Below, piece by piece: positions 6,129 to 63,935 of a DNA stretch of 64,000 bases. The notes beneath the pieces are model-generated. The model had not been told where the DNA came from. It made no database searches and saw only the letters and a list, made by a program, of their open reading frames with translations. The DNA comes from Heterotrichella gracilis (taxonomy: Eukaryota > Sar > Xanthophyceae > Tribonematales > Xanthonemataceae): contig JAULBX010010214.1 in NCBI GenBank assembly GCA_032358255.1, positions 1 to 64,000 of the forward strand, in the 5' to 3' direction. Numbering within the stretch: position 1 is the first letter of the stretch; each line of letters begins with the position of its first letter. The translations under genes were made by a program, and so were the position numbers.

Positions 6129-9100
6129 ATGGCCACAGCAGCATCAACGCCAGCCCTGTGCGCACATGCATTGGCCATGCCAGTACCACCACGAGCCCTC
6201 CGCGCCTGTGCTCTGGCCACAGCTATACCATCACCAGCCGGTGCATTAGCCACAGCAGGTTCAGCACTCCACCCTCCTGGTTGCCACAGCTGTATGGGAT
6301 CTCGGGGCGTCAGCAGCACAGCAGGTGTGGGGGCAGAGGTACTGTTCCCCACTGCCCCACCGGCCTTTGTGTTTGACATTGATGGCGTGCTCATCAGGGG
6401 CAAGCGGGTGCTGCCGGCGGCACAAAGGTATGCCAATGTGCATGCGGATCATGAGGTGGAGGGGTGGGGGTTGCACCGGGTGCACAAATGCACAGGTAAG
6501 ACTAAAAGCATGCATCCCAGCAGCACAAATTCATGTGAGACCAGCCTGCTGTTCCGCACTGCTCCATCGGCGTTGGTTTGTGGCATCGATGGTGTGCTCA
6601 TCAGGGGCGAGCTGGGCTGGTGCTGCTGGCATTGCAAAGGATGGCGGTTTGGGGTTTAGGGGTTGGCCATGTACAGAGGTGACATGCATGGAGGATGTAG
6701 GGTGTAGGTTGGGCGTTGCATCACAATGCGCATGCACAGGGGGGATTTAGGGTTTAGCAGGGTGCTGCATCACGATGCACATGGGCTGCGGGGGTACCAC
6801 CAAAAAGCGTGGGGGGAGCACCATTGCAGTGCATGGGGCGATCAGGTGATGGCGCCAGCAGTGGGCATGGCAGCCGGCACGGGATGGAAAAGCAGGGTTG
6901 TTTTGTAGGGTTTAGGGTTCAGATTGGGCATTGCACCAGCTTGCATGAGCTCAGATACTCATGTGGCCAGGGCCAAGTAATTATCCACTTCTTGCGCAGC
7001 ATGTGCCTCCCAGCTCTTAGACTGCAGGGCTCCAGGCATGATCAAATATGCAAATTTGAGGGTTTGAGTAGCTGCATGGTATGGGGCAATCAGGTGATGT
7101 CCTTTGCAGTGGGCAAGGCTACAGCAGGGCCTGCAGGCAACCAACAAAAAACCAGAAAAGGCATTCCCAGCCCGCGGCTAACTGTGTACACTTCATGCCT
7201 CTGCAGGGCATTGGCGAAGCTGTACCACAGCGACGGGCAGCTGCCTCGTTACCCTGTGTGCTTCCTGACCAATGGCGGAGGCATGCTGGAGGCGGACAAG
7301 GCGGCGCAGCTGTCTGGGTGGCTGGGCGTGCGGGTCACAGAGCAACAGGTGGGCAGCACGTGGACATGCCACGTAGGCAATCACGTGCATGCATGCGCAC
7401 TTTGTGTCAGTATGGGAATCCTTACTGACATGCGTTTTAGCAAAAGGCCAGATTGGGAATAGGTCGTACTTGTACAGTATGGGAGTAGGTTTGAATTATA
7501 TGAGGGTCCAAACAGGGTTGTTTGGGTACACAGCACTGGGTCAATACATACATGCGTCCCGGCAGCAAGGCCAGATGTGCAGTCACCCTTGCACAGAAGG
7601 GTAGAGTACAAGTTTTGGTAGGGGTTCATACCAAATTGCTACATGACCACATGCTGACTCTGCATGCCATGCCATGCCCACCTTTACGGCTGCCCACAAC
7701 CTTCAAGGTGCAGCCACGCAACCCTGTCCTATGGGTATTTGGGATGACGCACTAGGATGGCCTCTTGACTGATGCCAAGAAGGTCATCTCATGGGCCTGG
7801 GTGGGAGACACACCAACAGTGGGCTGGCTGCCGATGCCAGTGCTGGGTTTGGAAGTCAGCTTTTAGGGTTTAAGGTTTATGGGCACAGAAGGCTGGAGCT
7901 GGGCCAGGGCCATTCTCGCTGTTTTCTGACATTTAAGCTTAGGATTTGGGGGCTAGGGTTTACTGCAGATTGACATCGAGCATGCGTGCTCGCAGGTGGT
8001 GCTTTCCCACACGCCGTTCAAATCACTGGTACCCAGGTTGGGGGACGTCCCAGTGGTCATCTCTGGGCGGGGCCAGGTGGGGCGCGTGGCACATGCATAT
8101 GGATTCAAGCGCGTGGTGACAACGCAGCAGCTGGCGGCGGCCATGCCTTTGGCTGTACCTTTTATGGACAACACAGGTGAGCCAGGGGGTGCAACCGCGC
8201 TGCATGTGAGTGGCATTTGTTGTGCATCTGGTTGATTTATGTTACAAGGGTGGATGAATGGCGCCCTGGTGTGAGGACCCCAATTGAAGCCAGAGTGGGC
8301 TTCTGGGCTTCCACCCTTGTGCCCTTAAAATTTGCTTTGTGTGTTCACTTTTTTGTTACAAGCAACAACTGCTAACTTGCCAGAGTTGTAGTACAACCCT
8401 GGGGATAAAAACCACCGTTTCAAAGAGCTGCATATCAATATATATCACACAATAACTGCTAAATTGGATATTCTCAAACCACAATGGACGCCAACGTCAA
8501 CACGAAAAATGAAATCAACTTGCCAGAGTTTAAGTCCAACCCTGGGGATAACAACCACCGCTGCAAAAATTTTCAGATCTATTTATTTCAAAAGTCGTAA
8601 ATGTGGCAACAGTGGTTTTGTTTTACACCTATTATTTGAGTTTCTACGAAATAGTAATCATTTATCTGTTGCGATGCCTCAAAACTCCACAAAAACAACA
8701 ACAAAACCCCATGCCAGCCAAACCCTTACTTAAAAGTTCCTGAAAATCACACTGTCTTGCAATTGGTGCTGGTCAGCACCCGCCACATTGTATACACACC
8801 GACCAAGTCAACTGTCAGCACCACATTCCCTGTCTTGGCTGGCTCACCTGCTGCGCCCTGGCAGCCCCAGTGTCCCCTCCTCCAACCCCATTCCCTATGC
8901 CCCCCGCTCCTGCCCTTGATTTTACTCCCCCTGGATCATCAACCCTGGGTCATCAGCCCACGCTCACTTCGATGGCCTCCTCCTTGGCCACCTCGGTCTT
9001 GGGGATGGTGACGGTCAGCACGCCATGCTCAGCCTTGGCCGACACCCCCGAGGCGTCCACGTGGTCGGGCAGCTGCAGGCGGCGAAAATAGGACCCATAG

Positions 9101-12100
9101 CGCCTCTCCTTCATATGGTACCCCTCCTCCTCCTTCTCCTGCTCCTCGTTGTGCTCCCCCTTGATGGTCAGGACCTTCTCGGGGGAGATGGTCACCTGCG
9201 AGGGGGCACATGGAGGGGTTAGGCACGCGCACCATGCAGCAGCTGAATAACCTCAAAATTCAATGAAAGGTGTGCAATCTGCCAAAGCGAGCTGGATAGC
9301 ACAATGGGAGTGCACACATGCATACACGGTTTTGGTTCAGGCCATGCTTGCAAACCTGTGTATGCAGAAAAACTATGGCCAGCAAGGTTGACAGAAAGTA
9401 GTGGGTTTAAGCACTAATTAAAGCACAAACACTCCTCCCATGGCACACTAGCAATAATAGTTTTGCAAACTACAACCTCTCCTTGCTCTTGTGTGTTGCT
9501 TAGTCACTGCAGCCTGGCAAAGGCATGCACACATGCAGGGTAGTTTTCGCTCACCTTGATATCCTCCTTGGTGAGGCCCGGGACGTCCGCCTTGACCACA
9601 AACTGCTTCTCCTCCTCCTTGACGTCGATGGACATCTGCCTCATCTGGGCCAAGGGTCCCGCCACAACAGCAGCGGGGGCGACGTCAGGGATCAGCGACA
9701 GCGCAGGCCCGCCGAAGGCACGCAGCATGTCGTTCATCTCGCGCTCCATCTCCCTGAGAAACAAACGTAACCGCCCTCAGAAAACTGTTATAGACTCCAA
9801 GGAGCATGGGGAACAAGTGGACAGGCAGGCAAGCAGGTCTGCAAAATCAGGAGCAAGCTAGAAGAAGCATGGCCATGGTGGGCACTCGCAACCACACAAG
9901 GGGACAACGCCTAAACTCACGCTCCACCCACCTGAACATGTTGTTGATCCTGCCATAGCTGGGGCTGGGGAACACAATGTCGGAGGCGGTGCCTGGGGAG
10001 CCGCGGGACACCTTGCCGCGCCCTGCCCTCTGCTTCTCGATCGCGCCCCCTGCTTGGACCGACCCCTCGCCCTGCTCATGCTCGCCACCTTCCGCCTTGG
10101 CTGCGAGGCTGGTTCGGAAGCGGGGCATGGGGGCGAGGTGCCTCCAGCCACGGGTGATCACACGGGAGGGAGACATGCCCAGGGTCTGCACGCCGGGCTT
10201 GCAAGCGGTCTTCAACAGTGAGGTTGCCATGGTGTGGGTGCGTGTGTGATACGTGTACGTGAGAGGTTGGACAACAGCGTCGAGATGGTAGCAAGGATAC
10301 AGTTGACAGCAAGTGTGTAGATAGGTGTTCGAGTTTGCAAAGTGGAAGGAGCGTGGGGTGCTGTCCCTTATATGCAATCTGCGCAGAGGTTCCGGACTTT
10401 TCTGAGAGGTTGGTTCCCGCCAACTCTAGAAAGTCCGAGACACGGATCACGTGCCAATTTTGCCACGTGTCATTTCAACAGGTCTTTGCGTGCCCCACGA
10501 AACCCTCCTACAGGTCGCTGTGTCCATGCCTCGGGTATTTTCCAGAAGCATCCACTGCAAGCCCAGCGTGGGTTCGCCCTGCCTGCCTATTGGGTGTGAT
10601 TTCATAGGTTGCCTTTGGAGAAGTTCCTCCCCCACAGGGTGCGCAAGCTCCACAAGTACTCCCGCACACACCCTAAACAACACTGCAGACATGCCTCAGG
10701 AACATGCTCCTGGCCAGGATGCAATTTTTGTATCAACCTGTGCAGATTGGTAAACTATTTGTGTATTTTTCAGGCTCCGCCGCGGCCCTCCACCCCAGCG
10801 AACCCTGCCCCATCCGCGACCATGGCGTGGGCAGCCCTGAAAACCCTATCCGTGCGGTGCTGATCTTCCATGACCCCAGCAACTGGTACAGGTACGCAAG
10901 CTCAATACCCTAGCACGTGGTCACGTTACCCTAACAAGTGGTACAGGTACGCAAGCTCAATACCCTAGCATATGGTCCGGGGACACAAATCAAGGTACCC
11001 TGACAAGTGCTCAAACCACAAAAAACCGCAGTACCCTAACCAGTGGTACAGGGTTTATGGTTTATGGTTTACGGTTTGCACAACACGCAGTATTTTAGCG
11101 AGTGGCACAGCTGCACAAAACACAGCACCATTTGTGCTCCAGGACATTCCGGCATTGGCCAGCGCCATCAGCCAGGTGCCCTGGTGTGAGCGCTCTGGAT
11201 TGCACCTGTTCCCCTTTACTTTGCGCATCATTAAACCCTCTTCCTTACTCCCAACTGCGGAGCGCGCATTTATTCTAATCCTTTGCTTTTTTCCTTTCCC
11301 CCTTCAGGGAGCTGCAGCTGCTGTGCGATGTGATCATCTCAGGGGGCGCGCCAGGGCGCCACGTGGCGCCACCTGGCTCCCCGCCTGTGGAGGTGTACTT
11401 CAGCAACCCCGACCTGCTGTGGGCAAACGACTTCAGCACGCCGCGGTTTGGGCAGGGGGCATTCGCCGCGGCGCTGGAGACCCTGCACATGCGGGTGAGC
11501 GGGGTTTAGGGTTTTGGGATTTGGGACGGTGCTTGAGATGCTGCACATGCGGGTGCGAGGGGGTTTAGGTTTTGGCCAGTGGGCAGGTCCTGGGATGCTG
11601 CACATGCGGGTGAGAGGGTAGTGAAGTGGGTAGGTCGGGGCGGATAGCGGAGCGCAGGTGGTCGCGGTGGTGCGCATTGTGGGAGCCTGACGGCTTTACA
11701 CACCATAGTCATCAAGCATATGCAGGCGGCCTTGCATGGTGTTTCTGGATGTTGCTCTCACGAGCCATATGCATGCAAGAGTAAATGTGTTTCATATTGC
11801 GCATGCAAAAGTTGAATGTGTTTATTCGTGCGCATGGGCATCAGCAGCGGCAAGATCAGTGTAGGGTTTAGGGTTTGAGTTGTCTGGTAGGGGGTGAGCT
11901 GTTTCCAGCAGAGTCAACTCAGCATTGCAGCCGTACTTGTCCTTTTCCCTCTCCACTACCTGATTGCTGTGCACTTGTGTAGTCCACTGTCCAGCCCCAG
12001 TGCGCCGTTGAAAAATAATCATGTTTTGGGTACCCAGGCATCAGACTCCCACCAGGGCTGTTTAATCGCGGCTGATCCCCGCTGATTACCGCCCACATGC

Positions 12101-12962
12101 ACAGGTCACCGGACAGCCCCTGCAGGCCAAGAAGTACTTTGGCAAGCCCAACGCGGAGCCCTACCGGCTCATTGAGCGCATGCTGCTGCACCAGGCGCAT
12201 GTGATCGGGGCCCAGCTGCCGGAGCTGGCACCCGGGGTGGATGCGCTGCCCTTCAGTGGCATCTACGCGGTGGGGGACAATCCTGCAGCGGACGTGCGCG
12301 GCGCCAACTCTGCTGGTGCGTGGGATGGTGTGTGGTGTGTGGTGAAGCACGTGGTATGAGCTGTCGTGGATGTTGATGTTGATGTGGGAGGGGGGAAGGG
12401 TGCGCGTGGTTTTTGTGCACTGCTGTCGCACGTGTGCATGGGTGCTTTTCTTGTGAACTCCTGAGGTGGATGCGCTTCCCTTCATCGGCATCAATTCAGT
12501 GGGTGACAACCCTGCTGGTGAGTGCCATGTGGTGTGCAGTGCAACGCAATCAGCACGCAAGTGTGGGGTGCAGGCGTGGTTGTATCTGCTCTTGTTTCCC
12601 ATGTAAAATGTGAGGCTAGGCTTTCATGGGATGTGCCGACATATGTTGGATGCATCACACCATAATCCTGTACATCATAAGTGAAAATGGAAGCCCCAGA
12701 ATTCTGTAGCCCTAGGATCGGGGCTAATGATGCAATTCAATTTGAATATAATGTAATGATTGAACCTAATTGACTTTATTTACCCCCTTCCACTACTGCA
12801 GGTCACCCCTGGGTGTCTGTGCTTGTGCGCACGGGGGTGTTCCAGGGGCCAGGTGAAAACTGCCCACATGACCCTGCGGCGGTGGTGGTGGGGGATGTGG
12901 AGGGGGCGGTGGATGCCGCGCTCCACCGCACCCGCGAGCTCAAATGGCATGCAATGAGGTGA
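6129..12962 (+). CDS. HAD-superfamily hydrolase, HDHD5/CECR5 type
   Basis: A 432-aa protein comes from seven exons: 6129-6427, 7207-7348, 7996-8176, 10774-10891, 11308-11494, 12105-12315, 12802-12962. All introns are GT-AG and phases agree. HAD motif I is FDIDGVLI (Asp83 and Asp85), motif II is FLTNGGG, and the C-terminal metal-binding motif is VGDNPAAD. The long cap between motifs II and III and the KYFGKPN segment fit the subclass IIA family that includes human HDHD5/CECR5 and yeast YKR070W; substrates of that family are unsettled. The Ala/Arg/Pro-rich first 70 residues look like an organelle presequence, so mitochondrial or plastid location is inferred. The start was placed at the ATG that opens this presequence. 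Intron 3 (8177-10773) houses a complete antisense heat-shock gene, and introns 1, 4, 5 and 6 hold echoes of neighbouring exon edges. Confidence 0.88.
6550..6640 (+). repeat. Echo of HDHD5 exon 1 inside intron 1
   Basis: The stretch repeats 6343-6427 at an offset of about 207 bases. It retains the block encoding the HAD aspartate motif (GATGG-GTGCTCATCAGGGGC) and ends at a GCAAAGGAT remnant of the exon's splice donor GCACAAAGGTATG. By eye, roughly 80% of positions match. It is a decayed tandem duplicate lying in an intron. Confidence 0.75.
8953..10230 (-). CDS. Organelle-type small heat-shock protein (Hsp20), nested in an intron
   Basis: A 246-aa protein comes from three exons: 10230-9932, 9753-9555, 9195-8953. 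The alpha-crystallin domain spans about residues 140-235. It starts at MSIDVKEEE and contains [15 protein letters not shown], a Glu/Lys-rich loop, and the hallmark [10 protein letters not shown] short IEV near the C terminus can serve as the I-x-I/V anchoring motif. The first 60 residues are Ser/Thr/Arg-rich with few acids, as in plastid or mitochondrial presequences. Residues 103-112 ([10 protein letters not shown]) form the amphipathic, Met-containing helix typical of plastid Hsp20. Family role: ATP-independent holdase that oligomerises and protects unfolding proteins. The whole gene lies within intron 3 of the plus-strand HDHD5 gene. A TATA box and heat-shock pentamers lie upstream, and TGTAA words on the minus strand occur beyond the stop (8356-8360 and 8242-8246). 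Confidence 0.93.
10367..10433 (-). promoter_or_regulatory. Heat-shock promoter: TATA box and HSE pentamers of the Hsp20 gene
   Basis: On the minus strand a TATAAG box lies at 10372-10367, about 137 bases before the ATG. Just upstream are pentamers of the nGAAn/nTTCn type. Read on the plus strand these are GTTCC at 10389-10393, GGACT (one mismatch) at 10394-10398, TTTCT at 10399-10403, GTTCC at 10413-10417 and AGAAA at 10428-10432. The first three are contiguous, as in a heat-shock element with one imperfect middle unit. The position beside a TATA box and the downstream gene support heat-shock-factor control. Confidence 0.6.
10936..11056 (+). repeat. Echoes of the HDHD5 exon 4 donor region
   Basis: The donor region of exon 4 (10881-10915, AACTGGTACAGGTACGCAAG followed by CTCAATACCCTAGCA) is repeated almost perfectly at 10936-10975. 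A shorter match, CAGTGGTACAGGG, lies near 11041. Each copy contains the TACAGGTA splice-donor word, so each could act as a decoy donor. Confidence 0.75.
11530..11625 (+). repeat. Two echoes of the HDHD5 exon 5 end
   Basis: The exon 5 end reads CTGCACATGCGG followed by the donor GTGAGC (11483-11500). It recurs twice downstream in the intron, at about 11539-11556 and 11597-11613, each time as GATGCTGCACATGCGGGTG followed by a GT donor-like sequence. TTTAGG words lie between the copies. Confidence 0.7.
12462..12520 (+). repeat. Echo of HDHD5 exon 6 end in intron 6
   Basis: The stretch matches the segment of exon 6 encoding V-D-A-L-P-F-x-G-I (from about 12236) and then runs into GTGGGTGACAACCC and GCTGGTGAGTG. 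It thus combines the metal-binding VGDNP codons with a copy of the exon's final GCTG and donor. The block between them (ADVRGANS) is missing, so the copy carries an internal deletion. Confidence 0.7.
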
Positions 12963-13882
12963 ACCCGTGCAACGGGTGGACGCTGTGTGTTCATGCCATG
13001 GCAAGCCATGGCGTGCATACAAGCTCTCGGGGGGTTGGCAAAGTGCGGCCCAGGGGGGGATGGGTGAGTCTTGGTCAAGGCCACGGGGTGGCAAGGGTCG
13101 CATGGTTTAGGGTTTAGGGTCTAGGTGTGGCAAGGACATACGATGGGCAACTTTTATGGGTTGTACACTACGCCACGTGACATGTATGCCTGTGGCGTTT
13201 CCATTTCCTCAATATACCTTGGGGTCTTAACTCGCGGCGCAAATTAGTGGTGTATTGTCCCCAAAATCCGAGAATTAATTGGATTTAGGCCCTGAGTCAG
13301 ACCAATATGGTGGTGGTGGATGGTGCATGTGTTTGGGTGGGGTAGGTGTGGCGAATGGAAAGGGCTCAGTGAAATGGCAAGGCACTTAGGGACTGTGCCG
13401 GGAATTTTCTGTTTCTCATGGGGGATCTGCCAGTCGCAGACGGTGTAAAACCGTTTTTTCCGAAGACTGTGTAAACCACGCTGCGCGCTAGAGCGACACA
13501 CGCATTGCACAAAGAGCCCACACCCTCTCCACTCAACCTACTCCGGGCGTCGTATGCTTGCAAACAACGCAGATAGCGCTCTAAGCACGTGGCACAGCTT
13601 CGGGTTTCACCCAGATCAGTGGCTAACCACACAACTCTCAGTGGCACACAGAGTAGCGAGAGGGCGGCTTCCCACACTTTGACCCCGCGCCTGTTGCCGG
13701 TTGTCAGGGTTGCCGCTGGTATTCGGTGGAAGGTTGTGGGTTGACCAGCAACAGAACAGATTGGCCCTTGGCATGCTAGCCACCCCTCCATTTGGTGCTG
13801 TCATCGAGTCTCCGCAGCATTCGTCAAACAGCTTGGGCGAAGGAAAAACGTACTCCAACTGGCACAGACCACCGTCGAGGCG
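12963..13882. other. Intergenic region between HDHD5 and the pseudokinase gene
   Basis: It carries the 3' flank of HDHD5, a TTTAGGG tract at about 13103-13120, and TGTAA words near 13445 and 13473. Long minus-strand frames at 13366-14149 have no start context, homology or splice logic, so I regard them as spurious. Confidence 0.45.
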
Positions 13883-16800
13883 ATGCTTGCGAGCAGGAGT
13901 GTAGGGCTGTCTCGGCCAGGGCCACTCCAGCGCTCGAGGCTGAGGCGGTGTGCCAGGCAGAGCAGATGCGGCAGCAGGCGTTCGGCCAACGTTACAGCCA
14001 CCCTCACCGTTTTTGAAGCGGAGGTGGGTCGTACAAATAAGGGACTTATAATACGAAGATGTACAGGTTGTTTGAGTGGCCTGTGGGGTGTGGGTTCCGA
14101 TTTTGCACATGCACATGCATGCATAGTGTCCCATGCCCATGTTGCACATGCATGCAACCTCTCATCGACGTCTGTGAGGTCAATACTGACGCACAAGGGT
14201 CATAATTACCTAATTTATATTGGGACCCTGGACCACACTGGCCATAAGCCAGTGCCTGGCTTGGAAACGTTATAAAGGGCGATTGTGCAACATCTACTAT
14301 ACCCAGCCTCAAACTGCCACCCTTGCACTAGCATGCGCCAGCACTGCTGTTCGTGACTTAATCTAACGCATTATTTCTCTCTTTGCACTAACACTTGCAC
14401 GCACCCTGCAGGATGTGGCGATTGAAAACACGCTAGGCAGCCTGGCCTTCATCAACATCAGCAGGTATGGTGGGGCCTTTGTGTAGGGCTTAGGGTTACA
14501 AGATGAGATGGAGGCACCCTGTACAGTGGCACAAGCACACGTCTTACCCCCGCACCCCGTTACTAGCAAACATGCACCAAACCAACTGCACTCAGGCTGA
14601 ACTCTACAGGTTGCACCCTATCAACTGGGACAACCTCACCACATCCAACCCCCTGTTACCTTTTCTGGTAAAATGCTCTCAGCACAGCCACACTTGCCAC
14701 TAACTTCCCTTGCATACCAAACCTGGGTTGAAAACCCCTCCTGCGCTGCAGTTACCCTCAAGGGTTTGACGGCGGCCAGTTTGGTGAGGGCAAGGGGTTG
14801 AAGGAGGTGCAGCAACTAGGAGGGCAGGTGCTGTCAGAGGGCGATGTCGTGGCCAGGCTGTACACAGGGTGCGTTCAGGTTTAGGGTTTGGGGTTTAGGG
14901 TTAAGCTGGGGTGCAGGGGCTAATTTAGCGGGACGTGGTGACAAGGCTGTGCTTGGGTGGTTGGGAGGGTCGGGGGCAGAGAGGGCGGCATCGCAGTGGA
15001 AGGTGGTGGCAGGAATGGTGTCACACTCAAGGGGCGCACCAAGGTTGGCACGCTTGCATCCACCAACCAGGACGCGTATTCGCACAAGTGGCTATGTTTA
15101 ACAACATCATATGGTCATTTAAAGTATGGCTTTGTCGTGCAACTTCACGTGCCGTGCATGAGCACCAGTGTGTTATTTTTGTGTTATGGCCAGTGGCTTG
15201 TGTGCATCCCTGACTCCCTGGCAATGGCTGGTGGAGGAAATGTAGGCGCAAGCGACAACATGTGCTAGTCAGCCTCTCTTGTATATGTGCCTGTGAGCCT
15301 GCATGTGCCTTTGGTTGCGGGTGTGACGGGGGCCATGTGTGTCGCAGGCGAGTGGTGCGGGGGGAGCTGTCGGGCGCACGGGTGTTGCTCAAGGTGGGTG
15401 TAGGTCGGAGGGTTTGCATGTGCGGTTTAGGTTTTACAGGTGGTGCGAGGGTTTACTGTTGGGCGCATGGGTTTTACTCAGGGTGTGGGTGATTGTAATG
15501 GGGGGATTGGATGCAAATGGTATAATCGCTTTCTGTACCTCCTTATAATGTTATGAATAAGACGCGATGCTTGCACTGATTTCCTACACTCTAAATCCGA
15601 TGCTGAAATCCTATGCCTACACCCCGAATACTATGGGTCACGGGTGCCCAAAACCCTACACTCTGCTCCTCAGGCCTGAAATCTAACCCCTGCATGCCCC
15701 CGCAGGCCTACCCCAAGGGCGCTGGGGGCACAGCCGATGTGCTAGCGGCAAACGAGCTCGCCTCCCACGCAGCGCTGCAGCCCCCCGTAACCCCCAGTGA
15801 GTGCGACCAGCTCGCCAAGCTGCTGGGGGGGTTCGTCATACAGTCGGGCATCTCGGCAGGGGAGCAGGTGAGTGGACGGCTTAGGGTTTAGTTGAGGGTC
15901 GGGGTTCTGTCACCAGCCAAGGCAGGGAGGTCTGAAGAAAGCTGAATTTGTTCCTTGCCTGCGTACACCACTTCGATGTGAGTCTATCATATATTACGGC
16001 TTAGTATCGCGCTGAGGCATGAAAAGCTGATGTTAAGTGATTACAATCAACCTCCACCTTGTGGTTTGCAGTGGCTTGTGTTCCGCAACGACGGCACCGC
16101 CCCCGCAGCCATGTACGCCACCAGGGCGGCGCAGGCGACTGCGGGCCAGGAGGCGGTGGGCAGCGGCGAGTTCTGGGACAGGTTCGATCCCGAGCGAGCG
16201 CTGCGGCGGCGCCAGGTGTTCCTGGTGTGCATGATGAGACAGGTGGGCGGGTGGGTGGGGACGGTTGTACAGTTGTGATTGCGGATGTGACTCTCATTTA
16301 CAATTGCTTGGGGTACTGGGAGGACCGCATCACACCATGATTCGGCTGGATGTTGAAAACTCGCTTTCGCAACCCAATTTTTTCTCTGTCGCGTAGGTGA
16401 TGCGCGGACTGGAGTACATGCACAGCCGCAACCGCCTGCACCAATCCCTGGGACCCAATTCGGTGCTGCTCAACACCACCGACGAGGGCAGCGTGCGAAC
16501 CCTAAGGGTTCACATCTGGGACCTGGCCTTTGCTGTGGATGTGTCTGACGAGGCGCTGTGGGGCGGCGGCACCCTGGGCGAGCTGTGGGATAAGGGGCGC
16601 GTGAGGAATGGGCTGTGAGTGCTGCATCAAAAGGCTATGCATTCTGTGATGCTCGTTGAATTGTGCTGTAAGGTTTTTTTATTCCCCTTCTATGTACTTA
16701 CCGTACCCTGATACGGTGTGGGTGGATGAGGCATTTGTGGGGAAGCACGATCTATGGATTAGACGTAGGTGTGGGGGACAAACCCTGAACCAAAGGTATT

Positions 16801-51600: not shown

Positions 51601-51784
51601 TGTAGGTGGTGGCGAAGTGGAGGGGCCCTCCAGCGCCGTTGTCCTGCGTGATGTAGTATGGGTCCACTTCCATGACGTGCGCGAGGTGTTCCGGGTCGCC
51701 CTGCCTCACTGAGGTGTAGAAGACGATGGGCGGGTACTTGGGCTGGGGCGGGTACCGCCCCGTGCCTGTCATGTCGCGCGGCAT
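48605..51784 (-). CDS. Ankyrin-repeat / malonyl-CoA:ACP transacylase fusion protein
   Basis: A 535-aa protein comes from eight exons: 51784-51587, 51496-51371, 51082-50830, 50559-50396, 50228-50003, 49803-49634, 49386-49180, 48868-48605. Residues 23-125 hold two to three ankyrin repeats (GGPLHFATTYKQLDM; DDKGFTVLHRAAYLAHYD; SRGADPSIQSED). A linker follows with a Lys/Arg/Glu helix at 196-217. Residues 230-535 are a complete FabD-type transacylase: FPGQGSQ (235-241), nucleophile Ser321 in AGLSLGEYCAL, the malonate-binding Arg in VKVRSESM, His435 in SGAFHTSLM, and a C-terminal NVSAEP segment. The join crosses a GC-AG intron (donor GCAAGT after 50830) and is in phase; a stop follows if that intron is not removed. 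MCAT transfers malonyl from CoA to acyl carrier protein for fatty-acid synthesis. The N terminus (MPRDMTGTGR) does not look like a transit peptide, which is unusual if the enzyme serves plastid synthesis. Confidence 0.85.
50632..50656. repeat. Echo of ANK-MCAT exon 4 start
   Basis: GCCTCTGCA-AGCACAAGGTT at 50634-50653 resembles the true exon 4 start and acceptor GCCTCTGCAGTGCACCAGGTT (50557-50577), offset about 77 bases. The match is short but spans the acceptor like the others. Confidence 0.55.
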
Positions 51785-53116: not shown

Positions 53117-56100
53117 ATGCGCATCTTTTTCTCCAGCCTCTTGATACCTCTCGCAGCTGCTGTCCGCTCGCAATTCCCAATCGCCCCAGCGCCAGCTGGC
53201 ACACAAGCCCTAGAAGGGCCTCTCCATAACGCATGGGGTTATCCACAATGGCCAGAATACAACGCAGATGTTCTGCCCCAGCCAGCCCCATCACTGCAGC
53301 ACATCCCTGCGCTCAGTCAGGACAAATTAGCCAATGGATCCACACCAGCACCAGCACCGGAGCCAACAGGGGAGGAACAATCATTTAACGGGGAAGGGAC
53401 AATCAATATACCCAATTTGGCTGGTGGGGTGACATACGGTGCTGGACCAGCACCTGCAGCAGGCCCCAGCATCCCAGCAGATGGTGTGCAGCCGCCCAAC
53501 GTGACTTACTCAGGTAGGATCATAGTGGATTGCGCAATGCCATTTTTTCCGATAACTCCTCGTATTAAATTAATGCGCCTGTTAAAGCCTTTGATTGGGT
53601 CCCTCACGCAACCTTTACGCTTTGCCTATGGTGTCAACTTATTTGGCTTGTTTCTGTGGTGTGTGTGTAATGTGAATTCATGGGTGCAGGCTACGTTGAG
53701 GTTGCCTCTCGGCCGGGCTCCCAGCTGTTTTACGTGTACTATGAGGCCAGCGAGGTTCAGCCCAACGATGACAAACCCATCATCATGTGGGTCTCGGTAC
53801 GTAGCTAAGTCCAAAGCCACCTGTTAGTGGCAGCTGGTATCACGGATGTATACTGCACATCCCATTCCTATTAGGGACAATGTATCGTCTTCATTTATCT
53901 GTTTCATTGTGTCCCGCATGTGTGGCTCACCATGATATGATATGTAGTGAAGTGGGTTCTTGCTGAAGATTTTTCCTTGCAAAGCCAATCAGTACAGTAC
54001 AGATGTTGAAGGTCACGACATACCATGCGTGACTGCAGGGTGGTCCAGGATGCGCCGCCATGTTCAGCAGCTTGTACATGCTGGGTCCTCAGTGGGTGGC
54101 GCCTGATGGGCAGACGCTCATGGGCAACCCTGGCACATGGGCGGGCACAATGGGGCTGCTCATGTTTGACCAGCCGGTTGGGACGGGGTACAGCATACCA
54201 GGTGCGTGCGTGTATGCATGCTCACATGATATATTATAACTGAGACCAGCACCAACCAATACCTGGCTAGCCGTGCTTACTTTGGATGGCATTCAATGTT
54301 CTCACGTATTCCTACTGTAAGGATTCCTCAGCCATCCCCTCCTCTCTTCCTTCCGCTGTTTCCAGCGCAACTGGTAGTGCTCAAGAATTGGCCGCAAAAA
54401 GCTTCCCCGGGGAGTTTACCTATACATATTTCCACCTTGGCAGGTTCCTTTGGCATCCCCACCACCGAGGCTGAGTCCACCATCGACCACTACCTGGCCA
54501 TGCTGGCTGTGTTTGACCTCCACCCGCAGCTGCAGCAGCGGCCGCTGGTGATTGCCGGGGAGAGCTACGCAGGGAAGTACATCCCGCAGCTAGGTAGGGG
54601 TTTTGGGGTTTGGGGATACAATTCAGGACGCAGGGTTTAGGGTTTAGGGTTTTTCTCCACCGGCAGCTGCAGCAGCGGCCGCTGGTGATTGCCGGGGAGA
54701 GTTACGCAGGGAAGTACATCTCGCAGCTAGGTAGGGATTTTGGGATTTGGGGATACAATTCAGTGCTCGGAATGGGCTCAGGGTTTAGGGTTACAGGTTT
54801 ACCTACACGCGCAGCTGCGGCAGCGGCCACTGGTGATATTATCCGATTAGAAATTTAGCGGGGAGAGCTACGCAGGGAGGTACATCCCGCAGCTAGGTAA
54901 GGCATGCAGGGATGTACTGCACCACCAAGTTCAACACGCTTACGTTGCACAAAGTTAGATGGTGTAAAGTATAGAACAGATGTCACCACTTTCTAATTCA
55001 AGCAGAGTTAAGTAATGGATATACATATTCACTTGTGGCGCAATACAACCATTCCTCCATACATCTGCATGCTTTTACCGAAAACACCTTCAAACCATAT
55101 ACAACTGCTTTACCCTGATGAAGGGTCCAGCCTAATGAAAGTTTGAAAGCAGCCCTTGGCACGGTGATCTGCAGGTCACCTCGTCCTGGAGCTGATGCTC
55201 GCCAACAACCCCTCCTCGCCCCTGGCCACCAGCTTGGCAAACTCCACAGCCGCGCCCTACCCCTCCTTTTCACCGTCACCCCCCCCCACCTCCTGGTCTC
55301 CCCTCCAACAACCGCTTCCCGGCATTTACGTGTCTGGGATAAAGGCAACACCTCCGCCCCAGCCACCGCAGCAGACAAGGGGTGCTGTGGTGAACCCCAT
55401 AGGCAGTCCCACCAGGCGCATCAACAGTACCAGCGGTGTTGATCCGGGAGGGTCGTTGGGCATTGGGTGGGCGCAAGGCAGGTTGAGTGGGGCCAATGGC
55501 GCAACATCGCAGGTATGCACATCAGCGTGGGTAGTCACATGATGTGGTACGCCAATACAACTTCATGAAGCATTATTGCTGCTTCGTGTATCACCCATTT
55601 ATTCAATCCTGGCTCTGGTGGATGGGCTGCCTTAGCAAGCTCACATTCATTGATCACAACCACCCATCAGGGCCTGCTTGAACCACTGAAGGAATGAAAG
55701 GACATTTTATACACAGTGTCTACCATGACGACCAGGAATGTAAAGGTGTTGACGGGTCCACACAGAGCTAAGATTCTTGTGCTGACAGGTGTTCTCTCCC
55801 ACCCCTGCGGGCACATCTGCTCTGCAGCACCTCACCTGGCAACTGGATCTGCCCAGCTGGGCCCCTCCCCTCCTGCGCCCACCAAATTTTCAATTGGCGG
55901 GGCTCATCATTGGCAGCAGCTATGTCGATCCCTACACCCAGGTAAGTTTAGGGCTGAAGCTAGGGTTTTTGGTAAGGGTTCAGGGCTTGGGGTATAACTT
56001 GGACCTGGGTAGAGAATTACGGTTGGAGTTGGGATTTGCAGGGTAGGGTTTACGGCGATAATTCTTGTGTTGTATTGTAAAACATCATTTTGGGACAGCT

Positions 56101-59100
56101 TTGATGGTCAACAATTCAAGGACACCACCCGTTACGTTTAAATATGGCGGGCGGGCAATCAATTGCGTTTTGGTTCAAGCTTGACGGTGGCAATGTTGGT
56201 GTGGGTACCCATACCCATACCACTGCCGCAGTGCGAGGTATACCCACGCCAGTACTGCAACGGGCAAGGAAGTTTGAACCAAAACGCAAATGATTTGTGT
56301 GCCGTCAATGGTGGAAACACGTCTGAACTGCCAAAATGCAGAAACACATTTGCTGGATGAAACGCAAACGTCACCTTCGAGGTTTGGCTTGGGCAGGGTT
56401 TTGTGGACCTTAAATTCAACCCTGCACAAGCACATGCCAGCACCTGCAAATCGATTCTAGGAGCACTGTCAGAAGCTGCATTCCTTGATGGACCACCATG
56501 TATATTGGGCGATCATCCAGGGTTATGGCCAGGCACCCCTCTGGCCCAGGTGAAGTGGCATATGATCATGAGGGCTGCAGCGCCTCTGTGAATGCTTACG
56601 GAGGGATTGTGAAAGCTTGCATGTCTTCACTGCGCCAGGCATCAGACAGGTGAATGTAGCTCTTCTGTGCTTTCAACTGCATTCGACACTGTCAGTATGC
56701 AGGCTCACCATTCACCTATGCAATGCCTGGCGTAGTGAAGGCATGCACGCTTTCACTTTCACTACCTGAGAGTCACAGGGAGTCTGCAGCCCTCATGATC
56801 ATATGCCACTGCGCATTGTGTCTTGCTGCATTGCACAGCACGAATGATGACATAGGCTGCTTCCTCTTGGTGACTCCTCGAGATGTACTCCCTGAGGGAT
56901 CACAGTGAGGCTGCAGCCCTTGCAATCATGCAAGCTGTGGGCTGCAGTAGGACACAGTGTTTGCAGCTTGCCAGTTTTGGCGACAAATTAGCAATTTAGC
57001 AAAGTTTAGGCCACTTTAACACATCCCCGTTCCCTCCTTACCCTTCTTTGTGTTGCAGAGCCATTCCTGCTGGCTCTTTCAGGCAATGTACCTTCCGCGG
57101 ATGAGTCCACTGCTGGACAACACAAGGCAGTACAGTTTACTAAAATTGAATAGTAAAGGGGATCTGTCACTTGAAGTGTTCGCTCGAGGCTTCGCTAGCT
57201 GCTAATGGACCTTTATTCTAGTCCAGTACATGCGCCAGATTTCTGCCCAATCTAGGCCCATAAGGTGGCAATGTTCTAGATCACTGCTCAGAAGCTGCCA
57301 ACAGCAGGGCTTAAAACCCTAGGGCTTCTACCAATATATTCTACCTATAGGCAGTAAAAAGTCACCCTTCCCGCGCGCATGACACCACCATTCCCCACAT
57401 GGCCTCAAGTTTTGGCCTGTGGACCCCATTCAGACCCAAGTTGTGGCCACACTTGAGGCCACGATTGCCCAGCTGCTACCATCAGAAATTTGATGGTAGC
57501 AGATGTGCTCGTCTGATAAGTGTTCTCTGAATAAAAGAATTTGCGCCAAGCTGATATTTCATGAGAGCCCCTTTTCTGCACAATGCCATCCTCCCTGCAC
57601 GCAGGACACCACGATCTCCCGCATCGCCTCCAGTTTTGGCCTGCTGGACCCCGCTCAGACCCAAATTGTTGCCACACTTGAGACCACCATCGCCCAGCTG
57701 CTGGTGGCAGGCCAGGATGCAGCCGCCTTCTCGCTGCGCAACCAGATGTACATGTATATGCGCAACCAGGCGGGGGTGGTCACGCTGCTTGATGTGCGGC
57801 GCACCTCGCCGTATGATGGGGACGGGGCGGTCCAGGGGTACATGAACCGCAGGGAGGTGCAGGTGGGTTGTGAGGTGCTGCGTGGGTGTGGGTGGGTTAA
57901 GCAGTGCAGGGGTACATCAGAGAGATGGTGGGGGGGGTGGATGATGGGGCGGTGCAGGGTACATGCACAGAGGGAGGGGTGGTGCAGGGAGGTGTGGATG
58001 GGTGGATCGTGTCTGCGTTGAACGCTAGAAGACTTACTTTGTTTTCTAATAGCTACACTCTTGATACCCTATTGGTGCCCTACTGCAGGATGCGCTGGGA
58101 GTGTCTGCCCAGTACAGCACCAGTATAATTTACCACTTTCTCTTGTATTGGTTACCCTATTAAAACCCTGGTGAACCCTACTGCAGGACGCGCTGGGAGT
58201 GTCTGCCCAATTCAATGCCAGCGGCAGCCCCGTCCAGGACTGCTCCTCACAGGTGGTGGCCACACTTACTGCTGACACCATGAGGAGCACAAAGGGGCTG
58301 GTGGCGGACCTGGTCAGGGCAATGCCAGTGATGCTGTATCAAGGTGAGAAATTGAAAATATTAGGTCAAAATAAATAGTAAAATAATGAATCTTAAATTG
58401 AACGTCACTGGCACCGCTGACACCATGAGCTTTATATGTTGTTTCAGGGCAGATGGACCTCCAGCTTGGTGTTGCCAGCAATGAGAAGTGGGTGGACAGC
58501 ATGGGGTGGGAGGGGCTGGATGCCTTCCTAGCGTCCCCCAGAAACATTTGGACCCTGGATGCGGGCACCCTCCAGAGCGCCCTCATTCCGCCGCCATACC
58601 CAATCTTGGTGGGTGCCAGTTTTTTTAAACACCTTAATTGTCATAGTTGTGAGGGGCACAATGATGGTATTAACATTAGTTACACAAACGCCCAGCCTGG
58701 AGGAGCCAATGCCGAGAAATTGAGACCGTGCTGCCACATCTGCGTGTCATTTGCGTTGTGAGTCCTAGAGTGTGGATCCATGCCTGGCGTCCTTTGCAAT
58801 TGCATTTGGAATTTGCACTCGTGTGTATAGTCAAAGGTGCATTTGCTGCTTGCCATTGTGCAATGCCATTTACCATCCGTCTGTGATTTAAATATGCAAC
58901 TGCTTTTTGTCCCCTGCAGGTTTGGAACCCAGGTCAGGCATATGATGCACCTGTGGTAGGCACTTGGAGGGAGGCAGGCAACCTGGCACAGGTAGTCCGC
59001 TAGTTGAGATGAAATGAGAATCGTGTCAATATTGTAATAATTAAAATGAGGTAAAAATATTGGAGTATCAAGCTTGTTTCATTGACAAACCTGGGATCTT

Positions 59101-60263
59101 CCTGGTGGAATCCACAATCCACAATGTAGCCAGCGAATCTAGTGCCATGGTATACACCAGAACTACATTAGTAGGGATGGGGGGAGGGGAGGGAACCATT
59201 GTCAACCATCATCAACTGGTGTGCATGGGCAGGGGCAGCTAAACTTGCCATCTTTTGACCCTTTGCATCTCTTGGAGCTCGTATATGTCGGCATCATACT
59301 TGCAAACACAAAGAGATCCCATAAGCTTGAGTAAATCCACCACTCTTATTTCCCTCCCGGATGTGACCAACTGCAGCGGGAGGGCAATCAGAGTCGTGGG
59401 ACTTTTCAAGCTTAAGGATCTCTGTGTGTTTGCAAGGACAGCAGACACATACGTGCTGCAACAGATGCAAAGGAGCACCAAGTATTTGGTTTTGGTGCCT
59501 TAATAGCTACACTTCTTTTCTTGGCTTTATAACTTGTATTAGGTGTTTTGTACCATTTATAGTGTGCCAAATTCTATTAAAGTATCATTTCTATACGTTC
59601 TATTATTGCTTTTCTTTGTTTGGCACGATGGGTTGTGGGCAATGTTGGGGCAATCTATGTTCAATATTTTAAAAAAATGTACAGGAAAAAAGTTCATGTT
59701 TTGATCATTTTCCATGCACGAGATTGATCCTTGCTGCAGGTGGTGGTGTGCAATGCGGGGCATTTTGTGACCCGCAACCAGCCCTTGGTGTCCCGAGCCA
59801 TGGTGCAAGACTGGGAACCATCATGTACATACAAAGGATAATCCAGATATGAGATATATAAATTCATACTAGATTTGATCCTTGGCGCAGGTGGTGGTGC
59901 GCAATGCGGGGCATTTTGTGACCCACGACCAGTCCCTGGTGTCCCGAGCCATGGTGCAAGACTGGGAACCATCATGTACATACAAAGGATAATCCAGATA
60001 TGAGATATATAAANNNNNNNNNNNNNNNNNNNNNNNNNNNNNNNNNNNNNNNNNNNNNNNNNNNNNNNNNNNNNNNNNNNNNNNNNNNNNNNNNNNNNNN
60101 NNNNNNNNNNNNNTTGGCGCAGGTGGTGGTGCGCAATGCGGGGCATTTTGTGACCCACGACCAGTCCCTGGTGTCCCGAGCCATGGTGCAGGCCTGGGTC
60201 AACAGGACGCTGCTGCCTGCCTTTGCGCGGGGCATGCCTGGCAGCATGGCGGCGCAGGGGTGA
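53117..60263 (+). CDS. Secreted serine carboxypeptidase (peptidase family S10)
   Basis: A 698-aa protein comes from eleven exons: 53117-53513, 53690-53796, 54039-54201, 54444-54593, 55175-55512, 55789-55941, 57605-57862, 58187-58343, 58448-58608, 58920-58991, 60123-60263. All phases agree. The N terminus (MRIFFSSLLIPLAAAVRS) is a signal peptide, followed by a Pro/Ala-rich segment. Family signatures are GGPGCAAMFSS (169 onward), nucleophile Ser263 in GESYAGKYIP, GSSYVDPYTQ, acid Asp578 in GQMDLQLGV and base His660 in NAGHFVTHDQ. Several N-x-S/T sites fit passage through the secretory route to a vacuole, lysosome or outside. It removes C-terminal residues from peptides. A 100-residue Pro/Ser-rich insertion is encoded by exon 5. 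Introns 4, 6, 7 and 10 carry duplicated pieces of exons 4, 7, 8 and 11. A TGTAA word follows the stop at 60910-60914. Confidence 0.93.
54655..54900 (+). repeat. Two echoes of carboxypeptidase exon 4 (catalytic serine segment)
   Basis: The exon 4 end (54524-54596), which encodes the GESYAGKY motif and ends in the donor CTAGGTAGGG, is repeated at 54665-54735 with only two or three changes. It recurs, more decayed, at 54811-54898. Each copy keeps a CTAGGTA donor. TTTAGGG tracts lie between copies (54637-54650 and 54781-54792). Confidence 0.9.
57375..57482 (+). repeat. Decayed echo of carboxypeptidase exon 7
   Basis: Bases 57375-57482 match the acceptor and first 110 bases of exon 7 (57598-57708) at roughly 80%. 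Shared blocks are AGTTTTGGCCTG, TGGACCCC, CAGACCCAA, GCCACACTTGAG and GCCCAGCTGCT. A single-base loss and a changed acceptor make it unusable as an exon. The offset is about 225 bases. Confidence 0.85.
58083..58135 (+). repeat. Echo of carboxypeptidase exon 8 start
   Basis: CCTACTGCAGGA[T/C]GCGCTGGGAGTGTCTGCCCA at 58079-58111 is identical but for one base to 58178-58210, the real exon 8 acceptor and start (offset 99). The upstream copy then diverges into AT-rich intron. Its acceptor CTGCAG is intact, so it could compete as an alternative 3' splice site. Confidence 0.9.
59722..60200 (+). repeat. Tandem array of carboxypeptidase terminal-exon copies across an assembly gap
   Basis: Copy A (about 59725-59870) and copy B (about 59876-60013) share a 151-base unit. 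Each has an acceptor (CTGCAG or GGCGCAG), codons for VVVRNAGHFVTHDQ including the catalytic histidine, and a downstream intron-like tail. Copy C is the genuine last exon at 60123. Copies A and B leave the exon after codons for SRAMVQ and run into a stop, so use of either would shorten the C terminus by about 25 residues and replace it with a short unrelated tail. Confidence 0.9.
60014..60113. other. Assembly gap (100 N)
   Basis: Exactly 100 unknown bases sit inside the terminal-exon tandem array. The gap was probably left because the repeat copies could not be resolved, and the round number is a placeholder rather than a measured length. Confidence 0.98.
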
Positions 60264-61816
60264 GCTTGCACCACCTCGCCGAGCGCAGCGTCTACGAAGT
60301 AGTCAAGGTAGCTGCACAGGAGAGTGGCAAAACCCTAGGATAGGGTAATGCACTCAAGTGGGTGCCCAGGGGTGTGAGCTTCACTCCCTCGCCAGGGAGC
60401 GCTTGTAGGCATGGCGCTGAGGAAGGAGCGAGTTTAATTGCATTGGAGTGGCTGCCATGCTCCGGGGCTATGACAGCCAGATAGGGGAACGCATTTGAGT
60501 GGTTTACACCCTGGCCATAGTGGAGGGCTGGGTCAACACAACGCTGGATGTGTATGAGGCATTGTATGCAAGAGAGCATGGCGGCAGGGGGATGGGTTGC
60601 ACGCCCTCGCTAGGCAGTACAGCTTAAAGCCTAGTGGGTTGGAGCAATGGTAGTTGATTGGGATGTTATGCCAGGAATTGCCCATTTTGGGATTGATCTA
60701 TGTACCAGTATAGTCTTGTGAGCTGAAAGCAGGGCAGGGTATGGAATTGCGTTGCTAATATGAAATCTGATGGGGTGCACTGACGCATTGCCATGTACCA
60801 CACGCGTATATGCATATGGCGTTGGCAGGTGTTAGTTGAACAGGTGGGGCTATGGGTTGTTTTGTTTGGCAGGTAAACAGCCTCTGTTGCTGTGTTGCAG
60901 CGATCAGCATGTAATATAGGGCATTCTGTACCTTACAATCACCTAGATACAAATTAGGTATTTCACTTCGGGTCGAGTCCAAGATGTATCATTTGCACAT
61001 CACTGCAATGCTGCACTGATGCTTAGCACTACCAATAATCATTAATCTTCACGTGCGCATGCACTGCCATGGGTCCCATGTACAGTTACATGGTGCCGGT
61101 GCCCATGTTTGTTATCTTGGCACCATCAATTTTATGTGACATATTCATAAGCAGTGCTCCCTGATGGTCTTTATTGTGTCCCTGTACTCTGTAGTCATAG
61201 GTACAGTGATTAGCGGTTTCTATACAGTCTTGACGTTCATCGCCATGTCACCGCATTATAAGATTACATATCATGTACCGTAATATCCTTATTAGGGATT
61301 TCCCAGCATCCAGCTCCGTCCTTCGTCCCCTGGTCTGTATGCATGTGTCACGAATTCGGAGCTTCATTGCTGTACACTGCTCAGCTGCATGCCTGCCAGG
61401 CTGGGACCATGGGCAGATGTGCACACCGCTCGAGCGCGTTCCTGCATGTTGAGAAGAGAATATCCACCAATTGAGCAAACTTTTGTTGTTGAAAGTTGCT
61501 GCGGATTATCCTTCCTTGCAGAGCACTTGAAGGTGGGGGCTTAGGGGTCGTTGTCGATGCCCTGGGTTTAGGTTTTTAGGGTTGTTCCACTGTGGCACAT
61601 GGGTGCATCAGGGGCGAGTAAGATTTGATGTGGAGAACCATGTTGCTGGTGTTTCCTGGCTTGGGAAAATCTTCGAGGATATAGCTGGATACAACTGTCG
61701 TGGGCACCTTCTTAGAACGGCACACACAAAGGAACACTCAACTTGGGGTTTGGATTACTTCACTTCTCTCGGAAGGCCCTTTTTTACTCGTGAGGTTGCT
61801 GCCAAATGCGGAACGC
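60264..61816. other. Intergenic region after the carboxypeptidase gene
   Basis: Fragments resembling the carboxypeptidase 3' end (GGGGTGTGAGCTTCACTCCCTCGCC near 60369, and CATGGCGGCAGGGGGATGGG then TTGCACGCCCTCGC near 60578) suggest two further decayed copies of 60238-60280. Beyond about 60700 nothing is recognised until the nocturnin-like gene. Confidence 0.5.
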
Positions 61817-63935
61817 ATGCTCAGCAGAGGCTCAGTAGGTTTGCAGCAGCTCAGACTAGGGAGAGCTTACTTGTCTAGAGCTTTCAGCAGGGGCAGCAGC
61901 CTACAAGTCGCACGTTGTGCGATGCCAGCCAACGTCACGAAACTCCGGCGACGGTTTGTGGACCTAAAACCGTTCGACACGGGCGACATCGGGACATGCC
62001 TCACGGTGCTCCAATGGAACATGCTAGCGGACGGGTTGGCCCAAAACGGAGACTATGTCAAGGTGGGTTTCTTTCCTATTGTGTAGGGCTTGGAGCGGAA
62101 TACCAGGGTCCACAAGGCTGTATGCATGCATATGAGGAGTGAACGAACTGGCCAAGTCCCAAACTTTTAACTAAAAGTAAGCAACAGCTGCAATTTATAT
62201 ACGATTTGCTATATCACGATTATGTTGCAAAGAAAAACGTCTTTGAAACAGGCTGCGCCAGAGGTGTTGTCATGGGAGAACAGAGAGGGTGCGCTGCTGC
62301 ACGAGCTGCTGGAGTCCCATGCGGACCTCATATGCGTGCAAGAGGCGTGCCATTTCGGTGAGGGGGTGGTGTTGATACAGCTGGTGTCCGAATACTGCAA
62401 CTGAGGATCTTTTGTAGCTGCTGCATCGGCATGGTGCATGCCGCACTGAGTGACCGCAAGAACGAGCCTGTACTGAACAGGCGCGTTTTTGTTTAGGAAA
62501 TTGGGTGCATAAAATGAATGCACTGCCTTCCTGTCCGTTAAAGCATGGAACAAATGTTGACGCCGCCACACCTTGTGCAGATGACTTTTTGCAACCCGAG
62601 CTGCGGCAAGCAGGCTACAAGGGCTTTTTCTTTGCCAAGCCATGCTCTGCTGCTCTGCGCTTCAACTGCCCCTCTGACGGCTCGGCCATCTTCTACCGCG
62701 CGTCGCGCTTTGACATGCTGACGGACTTTGTGGGTGCGTGGGCAACACACAATTGTAGGGTTTAGGGTTTAGGGTTTAGTCCAATGCGTCCCGCTTGGAC
62801 TTGTTGAGGCATTTGGGGGGTGGTTGGTCAATGGATTGTTAAGGAGTTACGAGTCTAGGGGTTTGACAAGCATGGTCTTTTTGTTGGTCAGCGCCGCGCC
62901 ACACGCCACTTATGGTTGCAGTATCTGCACCACTCTTTGCCCTCATGCATATCAGTGCACATAGAGAAAACCGTACAATACCAGGGGCTCCTGGCTTGTT
63001 TCACCCACCGGCATTGCTTCCTGCATTTGAGACCTTACTTCCATTACTCCCTTCCACAGCCTGTTGCGCTGCACACAAAGCTGCATGGGCTAAAAATGCC
63101 CAGAACCCTCTATCCCAAACCCTTGACAGCACTGTGCTGCCCCAGTTGAGCCCTTCCTCAGCACCACCAGCCAGCCTGAGAACCCCGCACCTTACACTCT
63201 AAACCCTACATCCTACACTTTAAACCCTGCACACTCTAAACAGCACTGTGCTGTCCCCAGTTGAGCCCTTTTTGAGCACCACCAGCCAGCCCGAGAACCA
63301 GGCTGCCTCCTACGTGGGCCTGAAGGACAAGCTGACGGGGTCGACCATACTCCTGGCCAACACGCACCTCAAGGCAAAGGCGTCGCAAGCCAACGAGATC
63401 ACGCGGATCCTTCAGGTAGGAGGCAGGCAGCACAACGGGGATTAGGGTTTGCAATCTAGGGTGTAGGGTCTATAAGGTTGAGGGGATCCTCCAGGTAGGA
63501 GGCAGGCAAGGGTGCAGCGCAACCCAGGGATTAGGGTTGACAAGTTACGGTGTAGGGTCCATACGGGTTAGAGTACTCTCCAGGTAGGCTATGCTTGGGG
63601 AGGAAGTGCGGTGCAGAGTTGAATGGAAGCATATATTTGGGCAGGTTGTATAGCCTTGGGGCATATGTATGCTACTGGGCTGTTGGGGCTAGGGTTGCTC
63701 ACCCTTATAGGGCCTTGTCAGGCAAACCCATGCGCAGTACTTACCACACTGTGCATGGTTTGGCTGTGCGCGCACGTGCTGGTCCTTAGGCGGGGGTGTT
63801 GGCATGGCGTGGCACTTGCTCAACACCATACCCTAACCATACCCTAACCTGGTGCCAACCTGCTCCTCAGGCCTCCCAACTGATGGACAAGCTGGATAAG
63901 GGCGCTTCCATCACACGCAGTGAAGCAGGCAACGG
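61817..63935 (+). CDS. Nocturnin-like protein (EEP family), 3' part outside the window
   Basis: Five exons are visible: 61817-62062, 62252-62357, 62581-62733, 63261-63415, 63871-63935, ending at a donor, so the gene continues to the right. The EEP signatures are LTVLQWNMLADGLAQ (metal-site Asn), VLSWENREGALLHELLESHA, LICVQEACHF (metal-binding Glu), LRQAGYKGFFFAKPCSAAL, SDGSAIFYRASRFDML and ANTHLKAKASQANE (catalytic His). The W-N-x-L-A...Y-x-G-F-F-x-x-K-P...DG-x-A-I-F pattern fits nocturnin better than CCR4 or ANGEL. Animal nocturnin is an NADP(H) 2'-phosphatase partly located in mitochondria. The first 35 residues (start MLSRGSVGLQ) are Arg/Ser/Leu-rich without acids, consistent with such targeting. 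A later in-frame ATG (61922) could give a shorter, untargeted form. Intron 3 contains a copy of the exon 4 start. Confidence 0.85.
62752..62782 (+). repeat. Telomere-like TTTAGGG tract in nocturnin-like intron 3
   Basis: GTAGGGTTTAGGGTTTAGGG followed by TTTAGT lies 20-50 bases after the splice donor of exon 3. It is one of many such tracts placed shortly downstream of donors in this window. Confidence 0.85.
63125..63190 (+). repeat. Echo of nocturnin-like exon 4 start
   Basis: CAGCACTGTGCTG[C/T]CCCCAGTTGAGCCCTT...AGCACCACCAGCCAGCC[T/C]GAGAACC is present at 63128-63186 and again at 63241-63299, which contains the real acceptor (CCCCAG before 63261). The upstream copy keeps a CCCAG acceptor. 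The offset is 113 bases. Confidence 0.9.
63478..63592 (+). repeat. Echoes of nocturnin-like exon 4 end
   Basis: GGATCCTCCAGGTAGGAGGC at 63484-63503 repeats the exon 4 end and donor (GGATCCTTCAGGTAGGAGGC, 63405-63424). A further CTCTCCAGGTAGGCT lies at 63578-63592. All copies retain CAGGTAGG. Confidence 0.85.

Follow-up and report, generated by a model that had tools for sequence, protein, structure and literature searches.

Direct copies of splice junctions in neighbouring introns of Heterotrichella gracilis

In a 64,000-nucleotide stretch of the genome of the xanthophyte Heterotrichella gracilis (contig JAULBX010010214.1, positions 1–64,000; hereafter 'the window', and C104:1–64000 in our numbering), short pieces of exon edge recur in the adjacent introns. 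These copies, which we call echoes, exist in number, peak at splice junctions, are direct, are splice-neutral in their geometry, decay as non-coding DNA, and are not made or kept uniformly; the cause of their focus on exon and junction DNA is something that we infer. The initial annotation of the window had pointed to many exon-edge copies of mixed age in neighbouring introns, and such copies proved to be present beyond the window too. Intron growth and the determinants of intron length are poorly understood, and border-focused copying, if true, would be a concrete and datable source of intron sequence and spare splice sites.

Copies of exon edges peak at splice junctions

The assembly comprises 68.5 Mb in 903 contigs. 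Our sample covers 244 kb of this one genome (the window plus 180 kb elsewhere), with gene structures derived from sequence only. The stretches designated L025–L030 and L032 were chosen, non-randomly, around light-harvesting genes, and stretches of contig C1 (100 kb) were excluded as foreign. A self-trained, two-strand gene finder run on the 244 kb returned 57 genes with 413 introns without in-frame stops; the set used here consists of the 46 genes, with 387 introns, that passed a score of 40. The gene model at 52603–65436 fuses two genes, and that at 10526–18128 probably does likewise.

The local direct repeats are genuine and greatly exceed chance. Self-BLAST of the window gave 19 direct pairs less than 4 kb apart and two far pairs. 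Scanned along ungapped diagonals at offsets of 12–1500 bases, 224 kb yielded 103 clusters, none of them above 500, versus a single one at control offsets of 4000–5488.

Position profiles were built from 40-mers placed every 20 bases from each junction, a copy being counted when a match scored at least 34 at a distance of at least 60 bases and no further than 450 bases towards the intron; intron interior denotes 80–180 bases in, both ends pooled. By this measure an intron-side copy was present for 42 of 675 junction-centred 40-mers, as against 20 of 3404 in intron interiors, a ratio of 10.6 (gene bootstrap 5.0–21.3; 6.2 with the three richest genes removed). Exon-edge 40-mers had a copy in 32 of 637 cases and intergenic ones in 4 of 1613. 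On these counts the copies withstood the refuting condition set by the initial annotation, a frequency no higher than that of mid-exon or mid-intron copies. Restricting the count to identities of at least 0.9 left 20/675 at junctions, 12/637 at exon edges and 8/3404 in interiors. No junction peak was seen at offsets below 60 bases (junction 3/675, exon edge 2/637, interior 13/3404).

At steps of −40, −20, 0, +20, +40, +60 and +80 from the junction, the donor profile read 5/288, 11/313, 22/332, 11/367, 10/357, 5/344 and 2/333, and the acceptor profile 12/301, 21/324, 20/343, 10/368, 6/356, 1/345 and 0/334. Counted in the opposite direction, in which echoes see their own source, intron interiors gave 35/3386, well under the junction rate. 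An earlier set of 154 introns, at a score of at least 35, had copies at 13 of 154 acceptors versus 14 of 616 intronic pieces, with no excess at donors (4/154). Junctions show an excess of weak similarity below the threshold as well (p = 3e-5), as would be expected if there were many older copies that can no longer be recognised.

The junction focus was replicated outside the window, where copies were found at 28 of 469 junctions and 8 of 2397 interior positions (14/206 and 12/1007 within it). To speak of a genome-wide process is to extrapolate from 244 kb to 68.5 Mb, and the distribution is very uneven. Junction echoes are carried by 50 of the 387 introns and 18 of the 46 genes, while 28 genes have none. 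The window holds 20 of 53 junction events, with 20 of the 121 introns of its genes carrying one, and two stretches have no junction echo (L025, 0/39; L032, 0/30).

Form and decay of the copies

The 53 non-redundant events were picked by 40-mers centred −40 to +20 of a junction; 43 of them include the junction itself, a count partly built in by this choice, whereas the position profile is free of that bias. Their offsets run from 68 to 413 bases and their match lengths are mostly 30–120, with offsets spread evenly over the three remainders modulo 3 (16/19/18). Identities extend from about 76% to 98–100%, in agreement with the range first reported. The description of the copies as tandem is accurate for the nine that lie head to tail (spacer of at most 5 bases); it does not fit the 42 with spacers of at least 30 bases, nor two others with spacers of 14 and 23. 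At a score of at least 34, 887 junction and exon tests gave 34 direct copies, one inverted copy and none in the other-intron control. Templated insertion in both orientations was rejected on this near-absence of inverted copies.

Spacer sequence varies by locus, some spacers being AT-rich and some containing TTTAGGG-like words. Several young copies (identity of at least 0.9) stand beside an unrelated spacer, as at 27621/27741 in the window and 1057/1257 in L027, for which simple tandem duplication does not account. Introns that carry echoes had a median length of 299 bases versus 248 for others in the same genes (p = 0.6), so that growth is not shown. In earlier gene models for all sampled contigs, TTTAGGG/CCCTAAA 8-mers fell mostly within introns (583 in 127 kb), as against 4 in 60 kb of exon sequence and 90 in 56 kb of intergenic DNA. 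Donors have the G-rich strand nearby and acceptors the C-rich one, which shows a second, smaller peak at the 5′ end.

The copies decay as non-coding DNA. In the 35 clean events, a count that leaves out the 18 in which both copies were called exon, differences at codon positions 1, 2 and 3 were 49/407, 40/402 and 80/399 (12, 10 and 20%). Such a third-position excess (p = 3e-5) is what a free-running copy of a constrained exon would give, since both lineages change at third positions and only the copy does so at first and second positions. Frame was shifted by 21 of 23 indels in the same events. The GT or AG word of the echo was intact in 34 of 43 readable cases, compared with 32.7 expected from overall identity, and is thus no better kept than the rest.

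Origin of the copies

The explanation that we favour, with moderate confidence, is that local copying is set off more readily in exon or junction DNA than elsewhere and that only splice-neutral events survive. A stretch of, in most cases, 30–120 bases over an existing splice junction would be copied directly into the adjacent intron, about 70–300 bases off, and would usually be parted from its original by unrelated sequence. Break repair in the transcribed and GC-rich DNA of exons, either by fill-in or by template switching, is a candidate source of this preference. Selection would purge events in exon interiors, and intron interiors would rarely be hit, while events that include a junction would be spliced around and hence survive, harmless because the outer splice site (the first donor or last acceptor) is still used and the messenger RNA is unchanged. 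Exon-interior 40-mers had a copy towards the exon side in 29 of 1659 cases, above the intron interior even though such copies are selected against. Echoes would then be relics of copying, not working parts. More tentatively, copying may act specifically on exon or splice-junction DNA, repeatedly writing junction pieces, such that introns are partly decayed copies of their own borders.

Several observations weigh against this favoured explanation. Copies in the wrong, exon-side direction occur at junctions too (donors 8/333, acceptors 5/340), in part because copies were called exons, and protein repeats may contribute to the rate in exon interiors. Echoes are strongly clustered by gene (chi-square 105 versus 46 simulated, reached in 0 of 5000 simulations), which exon preference alone leaves unaccounted for. 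The guanine-plus-cytosine (GC) content of coding sequence correlates only weakly with the echo fraction (rho 0.34, p = 0.03, among six tests). Microhomology at the ends of copies and spacers shows no excess (0.33 versus 0.50 bases) and hence no sign of repair. Finally, the gene models behind the profile were drawn from sequence.

A nuclease, a transposase or a spliceosome- or R-loop-associated lesion might instead recognise the junction (CAG/GTGGG or TGCAG/G), with repair leaving a long flanking duplication plus filler. At donors the peak sits on the junction, to within about 40 bases either way, and spacers are unlike between loci, as filler would be. By eye, however, there is no common spacer sequence or end motif, and next to the real acceptor the spacer is poor in G, as a native acceptor flank is (p = 0.017, uncorrected, among six tests), and so resembles old intron more than filler; we consider such targeting rather unlikely, if the most serious competitor. 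Uniform neutral local duplication, in which junction copies survive via splicing and stay visible longer since the exon copy is conserved, was our initial favourite, and would be expected to produce both the splice-neutral geometry and the neutral decay. It was dropped on the position profile and on a simulation with a splice filter and slower exon divergence, which gave a ratio of 1.20 (0.90–2.04 over 14 replicates; 1.33 for young copies) versus the 10.6 observed. The plain neutral filter thus fails, young copies peak just as strongly, and we now regard this account as improbable.

An assembly artefact, in which contig ends, haplotypes or strains were joined at conserved exon edges or gaps were filled with raw reads, would be in keeping with the array that lies over an N gap (60014–60113), with the 903 contigs and the bacterial-looking contig among them, and with the regional clustering of echoes. 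The decay pattern argues against such error: frame-shifts and 11% change at first and second codon positions would not be seen between alleles, and read errors would explain neither the excess at third positions (20% versus 11%, p = 3e-5) nor the small number of indels (23, as against 169 substitutions), which makes an artefact quite improbable. Selection for decoy splice sites, alternative exon parts or splicing enhancers, the first two of which the initial annotation had suggested the copies might supply, could be read into the junction words of 34 of the 43 readable echoes; yet overall identity alone predicts 32.7, and the frame-shifts, the neutral decay, the similar amount of change at first and second codon positions and GT and AG words kept no better than their surroundings leave a functional role very unlikely. 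The least probable of these accounts, also raised at the outset, is that echoes are remains of intron birth from duplicated, AGGT-bearing exon segments. It has a reported precedent in a potato gene (PMC4974935), and two copies flank 4 of 351 introns (local score of at least 34) versus 0 of 1695 control pairings. All four, however, fall on echo events where one copy had been called exon by the gene finder, so that they are perhaps miscalled copies, and there is no general donor–acceptor similarity (mean identity 0.252 for own pairs and 0.251 for controls).

Relation to known systems

A search of the open-licence literature found no description of junction-centred copies; the nearest published reports concern intron gain by tandem duplication and duplications by break fill-in. 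In the potato RdRp gene, a new intron is reported to have followed a tandem duplication crossing an intron–exon boundary (PMC4974935). The likeness lies in local duplication across or near a splice boundary that is spliced out, whereas here there is in general no new intron, and the copies are numerous, inside an existing intron and mostly spaced. Fill-in of staggered breaks by CST/Pol alpha-primase yields small tandem duplications, with breaks bearing 43-base overhangs used in that study (PMC8355091). These are likewise direct, local and tens of bases long (here 34 direct and one inverted), but are head-to-tail and not tied to splice junctions, in contrast to the spacers of at least 30 bases in 42 of our 53 events. 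Tandem exon duplication with mutually exclusive exons (PMC9013439) also repeats exon sequence in the neighbouring intron; our copies are mostly partial exons with frame-shifts and neutral decay, and the 35 clean events do not fit a whole exon repeated in frame with both copies usable. For Chlamydomonas, one report calls the mechanism behind its conspicuously long introns unknown (PMC8226300).

Each echo is locus-specific, unlike introners. Introners, like echoes, are recurrent events that shape introns in algae. Neither the sample nor two DNA searches of the whole genome, in which parts of the genome served as queries, showed a dispersed family of near-identical intron sequences. Self-BLAST of 224 kb gave eight pairs at least 2 kb apart; in the whole-genome searches, positions 53000–64000 of the window matched four other places, and L030:1–5700 matched 37 besides itself, mostly through one stretch (1095–1156). 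Border copies lend themselves to counting in any genome, provided that its gene models are good. They also carry a warning for annotation, in that gene finders call echo copies exons; ours called both copies exon in 18 of the 53 events.

Copies in the genes of the window

The copies located in the window are collected in the table. Of eight genes initially named as carrying them, six did so at offsets of at least 60 bases (HDHD5, the WDR76-like gene, TBC, the folate synthase, the carboxypeptidase and the nocturnin-like gene). The other two did not: the model at 48605–51784, taken by its position as ANK-MCAT, had a copy in none of its seven introns, and the pseudokinase part of model 10526–18128 had none in 18 introns by the junction criterion.

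Table. Exon-edge copies in window genes (window positions)
Gene and site	Copies	Span	Strand	Remarks
HDHD5-like gene, exon copies	6342–6432 / 6549–6643	6342–6643	+	offset 207; model calls both exon; Hydrolase_6 below Pfam cut-off
HDHD5, exon piece with copy in next intron	12236–12286 / 12465–12515	12236–12515	+	offset 229
Two short tandems over donor edges	10873–10977 (period 55), 11469–11618 (period 58)	10873–11618	+	under offset-60 cut of junction test
WDR76-like gene, intron-side repeat from donor onward	26263–26379 / 26358–26470	26263–26470	+	
WDR76-like gene, acceptor 27761	echo 27621–27676, real 27741–27793	27621–27793	+	spacer 64
WDR76-like gene, donor after 28487	real 28458–28503, echo 28549–28594	28458–28594	+	
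TBC gene, acceptor 31992	real 31962–31999, echo 32074–32111	31962–32111	-	spacer 74; RabGAP-TBC domain
TBC gene, exon start	32384–32410, echo 32498–32524	32384–32524	-	
Gene 35288–40782, donor 38995	real 38992–39024, echo 38866–38898	38866–39024	-	
Folate-synthase-like gene, donor 43548	43530–43560, 43601–43633	43530–43633	+	Mur ligase domains
Folate-synthase-like gene, donor after 46048	real 46006–46063, echo 46184–46243	46006–46243	+	spacer 120
Carboxypeptidase, exon end and donor in triplicate	54518–54607, 54655–54736, 54798/54859–54902	54513–54902	+	Peptidase_S10
Carboxypeptidase, acceptor 57605	echo 57363–57477 (frame-shifted), real 57587–57702	57363–57702	+	
Carboxypeptidase, donor 57862	57821–57888, 57943–58004	57821–58004	+	
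Carboxypeptidase, acceptor 58187	echo 58036–58111, real 58135–58209	58036–58209	+	
Carboxypeptidase, last-exon acceptor, three copies	59718–59862, 59868–60013, 60114–60198	59718–60198	+	near-identical; around N gap
Exon end with weak copy	60180–60279, 60514–60610	60180–60610	+	80%
Nocturnin-like gene, acceptor 63261	echo 63126–63184, real 63240–63299	63126–63299	+	Exo_endo_phos
Nocturnin-like gene, donor after 63415, overlapping repeat	63405–63499 / 63484–63588	63405–63588	+	

The acceptor array of the carboxypeptidase spans the 100-base N gap, and its copy number is an uncertain guess of the assembly. A piece of the carboxypeptidase exon 58192–58348 also lies amid unrelated sequence in stretch L033 (C147:20001–23000), where, by eye, its intron seems to hold an inverted copy of the donor. 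The paralogue on C147 was considered as a possible empty site; it turned out to be a fragment and was of no help.

Other observations

Pfam supported five of six echo-rich proteins tried, with S10 carboxypeptidase plus endonuclease/exonuclease/phosphatase, FtsH, C2/SMP, TBC and Mur ligase domains; the search with the sixth (L027:26–4094) gave no match. The genome contains 43 light-harvesting matches. A predicted light-harvesting protein resembles chlorophyll a-b proteins of the green lineage, its best single-stretch match being 6kac (419 bits), from Chlamydomonas; on this evidence the source was read as a green alga.

Contig C1 (894 kb), sampled as L002–L011, has a GC content of 33–38% versus about 50–58% in other stretches, and its long, intron-less open reading frames look by eye like Bacteroidota surface proteins; it is probably a bacterial contig within the assembly. 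The window also contains long imperfect palindromes (22077–22187, 22986–23035, 56157–56295, 56554–56810 and 59260–59473) and a transfer RNA match on the plus strand at 36536–36654, which at 119 bases against a 71-position model probably has an intron.

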